In this document: in pieces, positions 14,198 to 22,648 of the stretch | Layout of the letters: every line of letters begins with the position of its first letter | Numbering within the stretch: the first letter of the stretch is position 1 | Assembly (NCBI RefSeq): GCF_000327285.1 | Contig: NZ_HE998567.1 | Coordinates: 504,077-560,822 of the forward strand | Source of the DNA: Holdemania massiliensis AP2 | GTDB taxonomy: Bacteria; Bacillota_I; Bacilli_A; Erysipelotrichales; Erysipelotrichaceae | Reading direction: 5' to 3' | Length of the DNA stretch: 56,746 bases | Notes under the pieces: generated by a model | The model's input: the letters and a program-made list of their open reading frames with translations, nothing else | Told to the model about the DNA's origin: nothing | The model's database searches: none | Translations under genes and position numbers: made by a program

Positions 14198-15838
14198 ATG
14201 AAAGTTGTGCTTACCACGCTCAACGCCAAATATATTCATAAAAATCTGGCGCTGCGCTGGCTGTATGTCAGCCGAATTCCCGAAGCGGACGTTGAACTGA
14301 TGGAATTTGTGATTAAAGATGATCTGGAACAGATCAGTGATCAAATTGCGCTGCGGAAGCCGGAGGTGATCGGGATATCGGTGTATATCTGGAATGCCCG
14401 TCAGACCCGCGCGTGGATCGCCATCCTGAAGCGCAAGCTGCCGCAGGTTCGGATTTTGATCGGCGGGCCGGAAGTTTCCTATGAGTGCGCCGCCTGGCTG
14501 GATACGGGAATTGAAGCTGTGCTGCGGGGAGAAGGGGAAAAGACATTCTGGCAGGCTGTACGCGGGGATCAGGATATCGACGGCTATGTCAGCCATGATT
14601 ACATCAGTCCGATGGCGTATGCCCGGGTTGACCTGAACTGGCTGGAAACGCTGGAGAGTCCGTATTGGCTGGCAATGGACGCCGATTCCATGGCGCATCG
14701 CTATCTGTATCTGGAAACATCCCGCGGCTGTCCGTATCATTGTGCTTATTGTCTGTCCTCAGCCGACAATCAAGTGCGGATGTTTTCCGAAGATTACGTA
14801 TTGCGGCAGTTGGCGCCGTTAGCCAAGCATGCCGTCAAACAGGTTAAATTTCTCGATCGAACCTACAACGTCATGCCCCAGCGGGCACTGCGGATTGCGC
14901 GCTTTATCGAAACCCTGCCGCCGACAATTAATTTTCAGTTTGAAGTCGTCGCCGATACGATCAGTGAAGCGATGCTGGATTTCTTTGAGCGGGAAGCTCT
15001 GCCGTCCCGATATCGCTTTGAAATCGGCGTTCAGTCACTGAATGTCAAAACCCTGGAAGCCGTTTGTCGCAGACAGAATAACCCGCGGCTGATCGAAGTT
15101 ACCCGCCGATTATTGAACCACGGCTACCTCTGTCATCTGGATCTGATCGCCGGGCTGCCCTATGAAGATTTGGCCAGCTTTGAGCGTTCTTACAACGGAT
15201 TGTTTGCGATTGCCCCCAGTGAACTGCAGGTGGGCATTCTGAAACTGCTGAAAGGGACGTCGATGATGAATCTTGCGGAAGGATGGCAGATGAAATTTGA
15301 ATTCCAGCCGCCTTATTCGGTGTGTGAAACCGCCTGGCTGAGTCCGGCTGATCTTGAGGTTGTAAAATGCGTGGATCTGGCAACTGAAAAGCTGCTCAAC
15401 AGCGGACGCTGCCGAAAGTGTTTGCAGGAGGTGTTTCAAGATCATCCGGATTTAAGTCCTTTTGCGTTGATGGCGCGGGCCGGCGCTTTTCTGCAGCGGC
15501 TGCCGCATCCCTATCAGCTGAAAGATCTGTATGAACAGCTGATTGCGGCCTTGCTTGGGGATTTAGAGGCGCAGGAAGCCCAGGCTCGGGTGAATACCGA
15601 TTATCTGATGCAGTCCGCACAGCGTCAAAAACCGCTGGCGATCACGCATGTGAATGCTCAGCAGCGGAAAGAAATCCGCAGAATTTTAGTTCAGCAGATG
15701 GATTTTGATGAACAGCAGGTTTATAATTATACCCAAATTGACTTTGGCTGGCATGCCGGTCAAAGACAGATCCAGATTGTTCTGGCCGACGGGGAGCTGC
15801 GGCGGATCTGGATGAATGAGGAGGTTTTAGAGAAATGA
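14198..15838 (+). CDS. B12-binding-type radical SAM protein (DUF4080)
   Basis: A 546-residue protein. The N-terminal 130 residues (KPEVIGISVYIWNARQT... ILIGGPEVSYE) form a cobalamin-binding-like Rossmann domain. The radical SAM motif CX3CX2C lies in SRGCPYHCAYCLSS (about residues 176-189), then a TIM-barrel core, then a C-terminal DUF4080-type region. Such proteins often do methylations or other radical chemistry on unknown substrates. The start has GGTGATAAAAT upstream. It overlaps rdgB by four bases (ATGA). Confidence 0.85.
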   Translation: MKVVLTTLNAKYIHKNLALRWLYVSRIPEADVELMEFVIKDDLEQISDQIALRKPEVIGISVYIWNARQTRAWIAILKRKLPQVRILIGGPEVSYECAAWLDTGIEAVLRGEGEKTFWQAVRGDQDIDGYVSHDYISPMAYARVDLNWLETLESPYWLAMDADSMAHRYLYLETSRGCPYHCAYCLSSADNQVRMFSEDYVLRQLAPLAKHAVKQVKFLDRTYNVMPQRALRIARFIETLPPTINFQFEVVADTISEAMLDFFEREALPSRYRFEIGVQSLNVKTLEAVCRRQNNPRLIEVTRRLLNHGYLCHLDLIAGLPYEDLASFERSYNGLFAIAPSELQVGILKLLKGTSMMNLAEGWQMKFEFQPPYSVCETAWLSPADLEVVKCVDLATEKLLNSGRCRKCLQEVFQDHPDLSPFALMARAGAFLQRLPHPYQLKDLYEQLIAALLGDLEAQEAQARVNTDYLMQSAQRQKPLAITHVNAQQRKEIRRILVQQMDFDEQQVYNYTQIDFGWHAGQRQIQIVLADGELRRIWMNEEVLEK

Positions 15839-16425
15839 ACAGAATTATTATCGCGTCGGGGAATCAGCATAAAATCGAGGAATTTCGGACTTTATTTACC
15901 CCGCTTGGGATTCAGGTGATCTCCATGCAGGAATGCGGCCAGTTTGAGGAGCCGCAGGAAACGGGGACGACCTTTGCGGCGAATGCCGTGATCAAGGCGG
16001 AAGCGTTATGCGCTCAGTTGGGCTGTGCGGTCATTTCCGATGATTCGGGATTGGAAATCGATGCGCTGAACAAAGAACCGGGTGTGTATTCCGCGCGGTA
16101 TTTAGGCCATGATACTAGCTATGAGATTAAAAATCAAAATCTCATTGAGCGCGTTGCCGATCAGGCCGACCGGACCTGCCGCTTTGTCTGCGCGATTGCC
16201 TTAGCCCGTCCAGACAAGCCGACAGAGGTGTTTGAAGGGACCGTTGAGGGCACTGTTGCGTTTGCGCCTAGTGGGGATAAGGGGTTTGGCTACGATCCGA
16301 TCTTTTTCTATCCGCCGCTGGGCAAAACGTTGGCTGAGGCCAGTGAAGAGGAAAAAAACGAAGTCAGCCACCGCGGCAAGGCGATGCGGCTGTTAATGGA
16401 GTATTTACATCATGAAGAAAACTAA
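15835..16425 (+). CDS. rdgB: XTP/dITP diphosphatase (RdgB/HAM1)
   Basis: A 196-residue house-cleaning enzyme that hydrolyses dITP, XTP and related deaminated purine triphosphates to monophosphates. IIIASGNQHKIEEF is the N-terminal signature (SGNxxK), ISDDSGLEIDAL holds the metal-binding Asp residues, and GFGYDPIFFYP with EKNEVSHRGKAM is the C-terminal substrate-binding signature. Normal length. It is coupled to the B12-type radical SAM gene and overlaps the Lit-like gene by 14 bases. Confidence 0.95.
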   Translation: MNRIIIASGNQHKIEEFRTLFTPLGIQVISMQECGQFEEPQETGTTFAANAVIKAEALCAQLGCAVISDDSGLEIDALNKEPGVYSARYLGHDTSYEIKNQNLIERVADQADRTCRFVCAIALARPDKPTEVFEGTVEGTVAFAPSGDKGFGYDPIFFYPPLGKTLAEASEEEKNEVSHRGKAMRLLMEYLHHEEN

Positions 16426-19381: not shown

Positions 19382-19543
19382 ATGATCGAAAACATCAATG
19401 ACTTTTTATCTGTTGCCTTTCTCGCCCTTCTTTTGATCATAGCAGTGTTCCAGATCGTCAAGCATTTCAGTTCGCGGCATGCGCGGCATATTATGGATTT
19501 GGAACGGGACTACTATATCCAGGATTTTGAAGAAGACGAATAG
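19382..19543 (+). CDS. 53-residue single-span membrane protein
   Basis: ATG 19382 with GAGGTGATAGAAA upstream and a strong promoter before that. The N-terminal half is one hydrophobic span (FLSVAFLALLLIIAVFQIV, residues 8-26), followed by a His/Arg patch (SSRHARH) and an acidic C-terminus (DFEEDE). ridA starts 51 bases after. It is too short for standard gene calling but has all the signs of a real gene. Function unknown. Confidence 0.7.
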   Translation: MIENINDFLSVAFLALLLIIAVFQIVKHFSSRHARHIMDLERDYYIQDFEEDE

Positions 19544-19594: not shown

Positions 19595-20077
19595 ATGCTG
19601 ATTCAGGAAATTACATCTGCCAATGCCCCGAAAGCCATTGGCCCTTACACACCCGCAGTCAAGCTGGGGGACTTTGTTTATATGTCCGGTCAGATTCCGG
19701 TAGATCCCGCAACCGGTGAAATTGTCGAGGGCGGAATTCAGGAACAGACCCATCAGGTTTTAAAGAACATTGAAGCGCTGTTAGCGGAAATGGATCTGGA
19801 AATGCGCCATATCGTCAAGACAACCGTTTTCATGACAGATTTAGGTGAATTCAATGCCATGAACGAAATTTATGCAACGTATTTCGATCGCCCGTATCCG
19901 GCACGTTCCACGGTTCAGGTCGGGGCTCTGCCAAAAGGGGCTAAAGTTGAAATCGAATGTTTGATCATCGATACGCTGGTTTATGAGCGGCAGATGCAGG
20001 GCGGCTGCGGCGGTTGCGGCGGCGGATGTTCTTCTGAAGAAGGCGGCTGCTGCGGCGGAGATTGCTGCGGCGAATAG
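19595..20077 (+). CDS. ridA: RidA-family deaminase with Cys-rich C-terminal tail
   Basis: A 160-residue protein. Residues 1-130 are a normal RidA/YjgF domain, which hydrolyses reactive enamine/imine intermediates from PLP enzymes: the N-terminal APKAIGPYTPA, YMSGQIPVDP, and the catalytic Arg104 (PARSTV) and Glu pair (VEIECL) are present. Residues 135-160 are an added tail with seven Cys (138, 141, 145, 152, 153, 157, 158) among Gly, Ser and acidic residues, like a metal-binding or zinc-ribbon-type tail. Start has AGGAGGTAAAC. Activity is likely; the tail's role is unknown. A serine dehydratase lies elsewhere in the window, a known source of RidA substrates. Confidence 0.92.
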   Translation: MLIQEITSANAPKAIGPYTPAVKLGDFVYMSGQIPVDPATGEIVEGGIQEQTHQVLKNIEALLAEMDLEMRHIVKTTVFMTDLGEFNAMNEIYATYFDRPYPARSTVQVGALPKGAKVEIECLIIDTLVYERQMQGGCGGCGGGCSSEEGGCCGGDCCGE

Positions 20078-20402: not shown

Positions 20403-20831
20403 ATGAAAGATTTATTACTACTTTATTATGATTCAAAAAAGCACTGTACGATTGCGATTGACAGCGACGGAACCATTTACACACTGCCCGACAAACCAAT
20501 TAAGTGGCTGCGCCGCTGGTGCGTTGAAGCCGGCAGCAGTCTGGAAGGACGGCTAGAAGGTTATCGTAAAAAAATGGGGATCATTCAGAAGCCCGCTCTG
20601 TATGTTGGCGGATATCCGCCTTGGATTTTCATTCCGACGGTTTCCATGGATCGGGATGACTGTGTTTATGTGCGGGCGGACCGAATCCGCAAGATCGGCA
20701 ATGATCATGGATTGGCTGTCGTTTATTTTGATACGGGTGTTGTGTATCGGCTGTTAGTCTGTGCCCGGAGTCTGCGTCAGCAGCGCAGCCGCAGTCTGCA
20801 GTATTTAAAAACATTGATTTGTCTGCGATGA
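20403..20831 (+). CDS. ComK-like competence regulator
   Basis: A 142-residue protein. The central region WCVEAGSSLEGRLEGYRKKMGI (residues 39-60) and KPALYVGG...WIFIPTVSMDRDDCVYVRADRI (63-95) follow Bacillus ComK: CRFFGSSYAGRKAGTYEVTKI, then KPPIMV...FLFPTLSSTRPQCGWISHVHV. ComK is the DNA-binding activator of late competence genes. The protein is shorter than B. subtilis ComK (192 residues) and lacks its C-terminal regulatory end. GGGGAACTT precedes the ATG at 20403. comEA and comEC are in the same window. The assignment is by motif comparison from memory. Confidence 0.65.
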   Translation: MKDLLLLYYDSKKHCTIAIDSDGTIYTLPDKPIKWLRRWCVEAGSSLEGRLEGYRKKMGIIQKPALYVGGYPPWIFIPTVSMDRDDCVYVRADRIRKIGNDHGLAVVYFDTGVVYRLLVCARSLRQQRSRSLQYLKTLICLR

Positions 20832-20878: not shown

Positions 20879-22648
20879 ATGACGAAGATCAATCTGATAT
20901 TCAATGAAAATCGAAATATTCAAAAAGAACAGTCCCGCTTAGAACGAATGGGACTGAAAGACGAGCTGACAATCGTCAGTGACGAACATCTTCTGGCATC
21001 CGCCAGACCGGAACAGATGTATTATGACAGTCAGCGCAAATGCGGCTGTTTCTGGTCAGGAGTTCTGGACAATGAAGAAGAGCTGCGCCGAATATGGGAA
21101 CAATACCGGCCGCAGAGTACAGGAAGCAGCGCGAAGATGCTGGCGCAGCTGTATGAAATTCTGAATGAAAAGCTGTTTGAAAAACTGGATGGAGGATTTG
21201 TCATCATCTTCATTCAGGGACATCAGCTGCATATCGTACGGGATCCGATGGGAGTTAAAACGTTGTATTATACCCGAAAACCGGATGGAGAGTGGCTGTT
21301 TTCGGATCAGATTAAAGGCTTGTTTGCGGAGGGCAGCCGGACGCCGGTGATCAATCGCAGCTCCTTGCTGGAATTGTTTGCATTAGGCCCATCGCATACG
21401 GAAGGACAGACTTTCTATAAAAATGTCGCGGAGCTGCCGATCGGACATGCGCTGTTAATCCGCGACCGCAAGGAAAGTCTGCATGAATACTTTGAGCTGA
21501 ACGTTCATCGGCACAATGAGGATCTGGCAACCACAGCGGCGCATATCCGCCAGATGGTCCAGGATTCTCTGAACCGCCAGTGTGAAGCTTCGCAGGTGCA
21601 CGCGGCCTTTCTTTCCGGCGGATTGGACAGCAGTATTCTATGTGCCCTGGCTGCTCAACGGGGACCGCTGAACACCTTTTCCCTCGATTATGAAGGCAAC
21701 GAGCAGTATTTTAAAGGCTACGCGTATCAGACGACCCGCGATAACGACTATATTGACGCCATGGTTCAGCGGTATCAGTTTCATCACCAACCGCTGCTGA
21801 TCACTCAGCGGGAGTGTGAAGAACTGCTGGAAACTGCGATGGTCGGCCGGGATGGACCGGGGATGGCGGATGTGGATTCGAGTCTGCTTTGGATGTACCG
21901 CAAGGTCAAAGAACAGACGGATTCGGTTCTGACAGGCGAATGTTCGGATGAACTGTTCGGCGGCTATCCTTGGTTTTACCGCAGTGATCTTGTCGATCTG
22001 AAATCATTCCCATGGCTGCAGTCACTGCCCCAGCGCGTGAAGCTGCTGCGGGCGCCGATCAACGAGCTGGATTATGAAGGCGCGATGCGGGCGGCCTATT
22101 GGGCGACGGTGCAGCGCGCACCAAAGGATCCGTTTGACAGCGAGCAGGATCAGCGGGCGAAGACGATGACGTATCTCACCGTTCATTGGTTTATGCAGAC
22201 TTTGATTCAGCGCCAGGAAGCGATGGCCGAGCTGACCGGACTGACGGTGCGGGCGCCGTTCTGCGATGCGAAATTGTATCAGTATTTGTATAACGTACCG
22301 TGGTCAATGAAATTCTTAAAAGGGGAGGAAAAGGGTCTGCTGCGCATGGCGTTTGAGGATAAGCTGCCGGCTCAGGTTGCACACCGCAAGAAAAATCCAT
22401 ATCCGAAGACGTATCATCCGGAGTATACCCGGCGGGTAAAACAACGCCTTCAGAGCCTGCTCAATGATCCGGAATGCCGGATGTGCGAGCTGCTTGATCC
22501 CGCTGCTCTGCAGCAGTTAATTGATACCGACGGCGGCAGTTTTGCCAAGCCTTGGTTTGGACAGCTGATGATGGGACCGCAGCTTCTGGCCTATTTCATT
22601 CAGCTGGAACTGTGGTTAAGACGGTATCAGATCCGCATCGAATTCTAG
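20879..22648 (+). CDS. asparagine synthetase-like protein without the glutaminase Cys
   Basis: A 589-residue protein. The C-terminal synthetase domain has FLSGGLDSS (residues 245-252, pyrophosphate loop) and LTGECSDELFGGYPWFYR, as in AsnB, which adenylates aspartate for amidation. The N-terminal domain keeps the fold trace (SGVLDNEEELR for NGEIYNxxELR; VRDPMGVKTLYY for RDRxGxKPLYY). However, it begins MTKINLIF and not MCGI, so the catalytic Cys2 is absent, and there is no HRGPD block. It could use free ammonia or amidate another substrate. AGGAGGAAATT precedes the start, so a missed upstream Cys start is unlikely. It stands alone behind the ComK-like gene. Confidence 0.8.
   Translation: MTKINLIFNENRNIQKEQSRLERMGLKDELTIVSDEHLLASARPEQMYYDSQRKCGCFWSGVLDNEEELRRIWEQYRPQSTGSSAKMLAQLYEILNEKLFEKLDGGFVIIFIQGHQLHIVRDPMGVKTLYYTRKPDGEWLFSDQIKGLFAEGSRTPVINRSSLLELFALGPSHTEGQTFYKNVAELPIGHALLIRDRKESLHEYFELNVHRHNEDLATTAAHIRQMVQDSLNRQCEASQVHAAFLSGGLDSSILCALAAQRGPLNTFSLDYEGNEQYFKGYAYQTTRDNDYIDAMVQRYQFHHQPLLITQRECEELLETAMVGRDGPGMADVDSSLLWMYRKVKEQTDSVLTGECSDELFGGYPWFYRSDLVDLKSFPWLQSLPQRVKLLRAPINELDYEGAMRAAYWATVQRAPKDPFDSEQDQRAKTMTYLTVHWFMQTLIQRQEAMAELTGLTVRAPFCDAKLYQYLYNVPWSMKFLKGEEKGLLRMAFEDKLPAQVAHRKKNPYPKTYHPEYTRRVKQRLQSLLNDPECRMCELLDPAALQQLIDTDGGSFAKPWFGQLMMGPQLLAYFIQLELWLRRYQIRIEF

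Follow-up and report, generated by a model that had tools for sequence, protein, structure and literature searches.

The window analysed here (the whole stretch of 56,746 nucleotides of Holdemania DNA) carries on its forward strand, at positions 19595..20077, a ridA gene whose 160-aa product matches the RidA profile and ends in a Cys-rich tail. A small single-TM protein of 53 aa (MIENxNDFLS...EYY; 19382..19543, +) is encoded 51 nt upstream of it. An rdgB-like gene, by resemblance coding for an XTP/dITP pyrophosphatase (15835..16425, +; consistent with family synteny), is located further upstream, and a ComK-like gene (20403..20831, +; Pfam ComK, E=4.8e-12) lies downstream. This order follows a synteny of the window's family, which reads rdgB - membrane genes - small TM gene - tailed ridA - comK - yitT: among 97 loci with a tailed ridA, the small TM family is directly upstream of ridA in 69, usually about 0-50 nt away, and comK is a neighbour in 63. 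Members of the small TM family are 45-63 aa long, with an N-terminal MIENxNDFLS and a conserved YY near the C-terminus. Searched for in the order at E up to 0.01, they turn up in 200 of 309 genomes, usually beside ridA or comK; the window copy has no Pfam or NCBIfam match. As this small gene persists where the tailed ridA has been lost, an obligate pairing with RidA was rejected, and it is best regarded, from its genomic distribution, as a neighbour by synteny and not as an obligate partner. Among the genes that recur beside ridA in the 97 tailed loci there is no metal transporter, sensor or metallochaperone, no redox gene, and no RiPP maturase or peptidase-exporter; a B12-type radical SAM gene lies near ridA in some of them, with housekeeping synteny. 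In Holdemania, comK is followed by a gene for an asparagine-synthase-like protein (20879-22648, +; asn_synth_AEB just under cut-off), a neighbourhood that most of the window's family does not share. A ComK-like gene directly follows ridA in Holdemania and most relatives, and competence regulation in this family may be worth attention.

RidA is among the most widely conserved metabolite-repair enzymes and has been studied as a single-domain protein. The earlier note had described the ORF at 19595-20077 as a RidA with a seven-Cys C-terminal extension, and both the identification and the coordinates hold: the product matches NCBIfam TIGR00004 (E=2.5e-50, 169.8 bits, above the curated subfamily cut-off of 106.25) and Pfam PF01042 (E=4.5e-43), with a RidA match spanning residues 4-125 of the 160-aa protein. 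The catalytic core (residues 1-121; 19595..19957, +) contains Y18, S31, N90, R104 and E121, that is, all residues aligned with the active site, which in enterobacterial RidA we take to be Tyr17, Ser30, Asn88, Arg105 and Glu120; R104 is kept in 97 of 97 tailed orthologs. An eighth Cys, C122, comes immediately after E121 (the residue aligned with the catalytic Glu), and Thr106 stands at the position of E. coli C107. In an AlphaFold monomer prediction, the core has pLDDT > 90 and adopts the Rid (chorismate-mutase-like) fold. The nearest PDB entry, Clostridium thermocellum RidA (1xrg), is also the best Foldseek match (0.8 A over 123 columns, with only the core aligned), and the TM score (target) against 1xrg and other entries reaches 0.97. 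Matches to solved RidA structures stop at about residue 125. Core fold and active-site residues are the same as in known RidA (YjgF/YER057c/UK114; TIGR00004 / PF01042); where the known structures end, the proteins of the window's family continue with a helical linker, which is conserved, and a disordered Cys-rich tail. A whole-genome PF01042 search detects this ridA as the only Rid-family gene (n=1) of the Holdemania genome, so any RidA activity in the cell would come from the 19595-20077 product. We infer a 2-aminoacrylate / imine deaminase activity for this protein from its residues and from its status as the sole Rid protein.

Past the core, the C-terminus of the protein reads ...IECLIIDTLVYERQMQGGCGGCGGGCSSEEGGCCGGDCCGE and includes seven tail Cys. 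It starts with a linker, DTLVYERQMQG (residues 126-136; 19970..20002, +), with a predicted helix at residues 128-136 of the structure model; its DTLxYE motif (126-131) is common to tailed RidAs, and ordinary RidAs are without linker. The Cys/Gly/acidic tail that follows (residues 137-160; 20003..20074, +), whose sequence is GCGGCGGGCSSEEGGCCGGDCCGE, is predicted to be disordered, with a pLDDT of about 50 and below. Tail Cys are located at residues 138, 141, 145, 152, 153, 157 and 158, which agrees with the C-x2-C-x3-C, CC and CC spacing given earlier and extends it to the full form C-x2-C-x3-C-x6-CC-x3-CC. With eight Cys, the C-terminal 40-mer of RidA ranks first among 1199 largely non-overlapping ORFs from 1.2 Mb of the Holdemania genome (the next ones having 6, 5, 5 and 5), in which the background Cys frequency is 1.6%. 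On the strength of this first rank, a genome-wide habit of Cys tails was rejected. The same genome encodes a Nitro_FeMo-Co family protein (G000:C1:730050-730481; L167:10050-10481, -) ending in a His/Cys tail, CSHHHDHQAGHSCSCGKHS, which is another putative metal-ligand tail. A frameshift or sequencing artefact was likewise rejected, tails of identical type being present in four Holdemania genomes and in many other species. The nearest named genomes are H. filiformis DSM 12042 and Holdemania sp. Marseille-P2844, with RidA proteins 97% identical to that of the window.

RidA orthologs were detected in 274 of 315 genomes of the order. We compared 132 RidA cores, 97 of which carry a tail of at least two Cys and 35 of which do not. 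One of these 35 (L071) runs off a contig end with the DTL linker still visible, and was therefore not accepted as a tail-less member of the tailed clade. Untailed RidAs stop at about residue 126. The earlier note had counted absence of the tail from all close relatives as evidence against it; the alignment of relatives' RidA instead places it in all close relatives, including every Holdemania, and in 97 orthologs of the family. All 97 tailed RidAs fall within the window's family, and in the sister family as well as in the class and phylum samples the RidA match stops at about residue 124-128; six loci with long open frames proved untailed upon inspection. A tail-only search beyond the family gave no match in 395 genomes of the class, with a query that is weak. 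A single clade of all tailed sequences is not rejected (p-AU 0.557): the tree constrained in this way has a slightly better fit than the unconstrained one, on 121 columns and with poor branch support, and synteny also supports one clade, including a divergent genus with short CEGCCCD and DDCGGSGC tails. As clade test and shared synteny agree, a single origin of the tail at the ridA locus is the simplest reading. The tail is a long-established feature of this locus in the window's family. Untailed RidA paralogs also occur in the family; they have the same core, with a PARSC-type motif, but end at about residue 125, and the loci where they are found lack the small TM / comK synteny. In a distant genome of the class, three Rid-domain matches lie inside one 435-aa open frame (G751:C4:38517-39695), a possible fused triple Rid protein.

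When measured past the 12-residue stretch that follows E121, the 97 tails range in length from 12 to 132 residues (median 23) and contain 2 to 22 Cys (median 5), Cys count rising with tail length (rho 0.86). Their pooled composition is 22.8% Cys, 22.7% Gly, 12.1% Glu, 9.5% Asp (Asp+Glu, 21.6%), 7.9% Ser and 5.4% His, with about 4% of hydrophobic and aromatic residues together and less than 1% of F+W+Y. Gaps between successive Cys are mostly of 0-4 residues (CC, CxC, CxxC, CxxxC), and no Cys position is conserved across tails. Several lineages show His-rich stretches, such as HDHEHTHGEE or HHHHHDHEGCGCGG, and one tail holds 22 Cys and 11 His. Tandem repeats are present in longer tails, for example an exact one of 45 nt in L021 and one of 22 nt in L025; tail growth by duplication is thus real. 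In one tailed RidA (L254; G112:C1:30300-33100), a TAG stands right after DTRALEVLCS and is followed in frame by NCECTGNTCCTGE, which represents either a recent tail truncation or an assembly error.

Close pairs of tails tell how these sequences change. In 26 protein-aligned pairs, Cys was retained 175 times (54 of them through a TGC/TGT switch) and replaced 4 times, while 110 of 618 non-Cys tail positions were replaced; some sequences occur in more than one of these pairs, and aligning by protein gives Cys an advantage. A set of 11 independent ungapped pairs yields 13 synonymous against 2 replacement changes at Cys codons, although roughly 3 replacements would be expected for each synonymous change (P about 4e-7 at kappa 4); the difference between Cys and the other tail residues is not significant in these 11 pairs (p=0.18). 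A looser codon count on 35 equal-length pairs at larger distance gave no excess of Cys conservation, probably due to indels misaligning the tails, and lends no support. In addition, tail GC3 follows core GC3 (rho 0.66) in genes spanning 10% to 73% GC3, as expected if the tail is selected as protein rather than maintained as a GC-rich repeat. The tail evolves fast in length and sequence, under selection for Cys.

One genus of the window's family (g7) provides further information: in many of its genomes, the syntenic interval from the small TM gene to comK could be examined. Three states were observed at this site: a tailed RidA with Arg, a RidA descendant without Arg104, and no ridA, in which case the small TM gene abuts comK. 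Arg104 and its surroundings are gone in seven genomes (L220, L244, L245, L246, L247, L253 and L252, the last being too diverged for the profile and recognised by position and by eye), which represent about two lineages and thus few independent events. All seven copies nevertheless end in a Cys cluster of the CxxC kind: GCEGCKKKCDGRC, GCGGCKGCGGVC, GGCEGCPKKN, GGCEGCTKKR, GCEGCERRG, MGCAGCQGCAART and CASCKGCSQKG. Between L245 and L246, dS is 0.56 and dN 0.08, indicating purifying selection as protein, at least in that lineage. Each of the seven Arg-less genomes carries an untailed RidA with the PARSC motif elsewhere. Similarly, all sampled genomes of the genus without ridA at the site have another Rid protein, nearly always a canonical untailed RidA (in G116, the remaining Rid protein is a distant one only), and the eight sampled genomes without an untailed paralog all keep the tailed enzyme with its Arg. 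At the genus level, the association between untailed paralog and state of the tailed enzyme is significant by a Fisher test which ignores phylogeny (p about 0.0009). These states are most naturally read as an untailed RidA taking deamination over from the tailed copy, which may then be lost or kept for its tail. As Cys clusters persist on copies devoid of the active site, the tail outlives the enzyme and probably has a role separable from deamination. The earlier note had suggested that, through the tail, metal or redox state would be linked with imine detoxification; no result shows such a coupling, and the active-site-less tailed copies argue for a separable role instead.

We consider that the tail most likely binds metal, with a probability of about 50%. 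The make-up of the tails fits metal binding, and on this reading the Holdemania RidA would be a family-specific form of the housekeeping imine deaminase, equipped with a flexible C-terminal ligand tail. The core, presumably assembled as the usual homotrimer with active sites at the subunit interfaces, would display three tails, i.e. 21 Cys, whose clustered thiolates, aided by His and Asp/Glu, would bind soft metals, for instance Zn(II), Cu(I) or Ni(II). The tail would then serve as a metal buffer or reservoir, in the way of the SlyD tail or of metallothionein, and a single scaffold would serve both deamination and metal binding; where deamination passes to a second, untailed RidA, the tailed copy would disappear or be reduced to scaffold plus tail. 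SlyD is a housekeeping PPIase whose C-terminal tail is unstructured, varies between species and is rich in His, Cys, Asp and Glu; the E. coli tail binds up to 7 Ni(II), that of H. pylori 2.4 Ni(II) or 3.3 Zn(II) (PMC7055735). The likeness (a folded housekeeping enzyme followed by a disordered, species-variable tail of Cys, His, Asp and Glu) is one of working principle, with no homology claimed: PPIases are unrelated to Rid, and metal binding was measured for SlyD, whereas for the RidA tail it is proposed. With bacterial metallothioneins, the tails share a high Cys density, CxC/CxxC/CC motifs and few hydrophobic or aromatic residues, but they are Gly- and acid-rich, lack a conserved Cys array and are fused to an enzyme. 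A Pfam search of the window tail and three long tails (E up to 1) retrieved no metallothionein match. For this reason, and since no metal gene recurs nearby, we do not class the RidA tail as a metallothionein; the likeness would lie in how it works.

Several observations weigh against a metal-binding tail. The locus consists of rdgB, membrane proteins, comK and yitT, with no metal-related neighbour, even the longest tails have no Pfam metallothionein match, and some tails hold only two to four Cys, which would not make an independent site unless ligands are shared within the trimer. Finally, CxxC also suits redox chemistry, which leads to the main rival explanation: the tail could be a disulfide or persulfide store, or an oxidation sensor protecting or regulating RidA, or could provide a link to thioredoxin or sulfide in anaerobes. 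The CC, CxC and CxxC motifs are in line with such a thiol role, Cys are strongly retained amid freely changing sequence, and the reduced two-Cys tails of some lineages (CGGSGC or CxxC) suit redox chemistry better than metal binding. A purely redox role is nevertheless less favoured, because the His-rich stretches give it little advantage, several lineages adding His and acidic runs to their Cys. Moreover, there is no fixed Cys pair among the tails and, with no conserved Cys position, no single redox pair is preserved; redox genes are also absent from the neighbourhood. The earlier note had drawn an analogy with the chaperone function gained by E. coli RidA on chlorination. This analogy fails: activation of E. 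coli RidA by HOCl is an N-chlorination which works in the cysteine-free C107S mutant (PMC4284807), and therefore lends no support to a Cys tail; this cysteine-independent oxidant response also counts against the redox explanation itself. We also rejected the idea that the tail compensates for the lost equivalent of E. coli C107, as 47 of the 97 tailed RidAs and 13 of the 35 untailed ones have a Cys at that position. Overall, a thiol/redox role is a serious but clearly less probable explanation.

The other explanations appear unlikely. One is that the tail is a functionless, low-complexity extension derived from triplet or tandem repeats. Internal repeats do lengthen several tails (L021, L025), the window has a local GGC-like period-3 signal, and L254 has its TAG just before a tail remnant; this much stands of the repeat-expansion origin considered in the earlier note. 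Repeats were rejected as the sole cause, however, given the selection on Cys codons and the tracking of core GC3 by tail GC3 over 97 orthologs of widely differing GC, and the retention of the tail after active-site loss is also difficult to reconcile with neutrality, which we consider improbable. Docking or localisation is no better placed: a Cys/Gly/acidic tail could bind a partner, perhaps the upstream small membrane protein, which adjoins ridA in 69 of the 97 loci, but that gene is kept where the tailed ridA is lost, is widespread without it and does not adjoin ridA at several tailed loci, while the divergence of tail sequences is too rapid to fit a specific interface. Somewhat less likely still, the tail thiols might be sacrificial nucleophiles trapping electrophilic enamine by-products freed at the active site (2-aminoacrylate, dehydroalanine-like). 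This would be chemically plausible with a reactive enamine substrate and many interchangeable thiols, but tails stay on copies without an active site, RidAs in the rest of the class and phylum samples are untailed, and His-rich tails are left unexplained. Finally, a RidA-like leader of a Cys-rich modified peptide (cf. Nif11 and nitrile-hydratase leader peptides, NHLP), with the tail as core peptide, would account for the succession of an enzyme-like, conserved body and a C-terminus that is Cys-rich and hypervariable, but we rejected it as very improbable, since no adjacent maturase or peptidase/exporter recurs at the 97 loci and nearly all members keep the active-site residues in their core.

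The core is an ordinary RidA and the Cys tail is a new feature; we found no report of a Cys-rich tail on RidA/YjgF/Rid proteins in the open full-text literature, subscription papers lying outside this search. A family-wide Cys/His tail that is kept after active-site loss means that RidA can carry a second function, and one genus offers a natural experiment, with tailed enzymes that are intact, tailed copies that lack the active site, and untailed paralogs. More tentatively, RidA may in this family have become a display scaffold for a metallothionein-like tail; in that genus the enzyme would have been given up with scaffold and tail retained, turning a detoxification enzyme into a pseudoenzyme-based metal/thiol carrier. 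If the tail binds metal, these gut bacteria would own an unrecognised metal/thiol buffer on a housekeeping enzyme, and RidA phenotypes in such bacteria would not be attributable to enamine stress alone.
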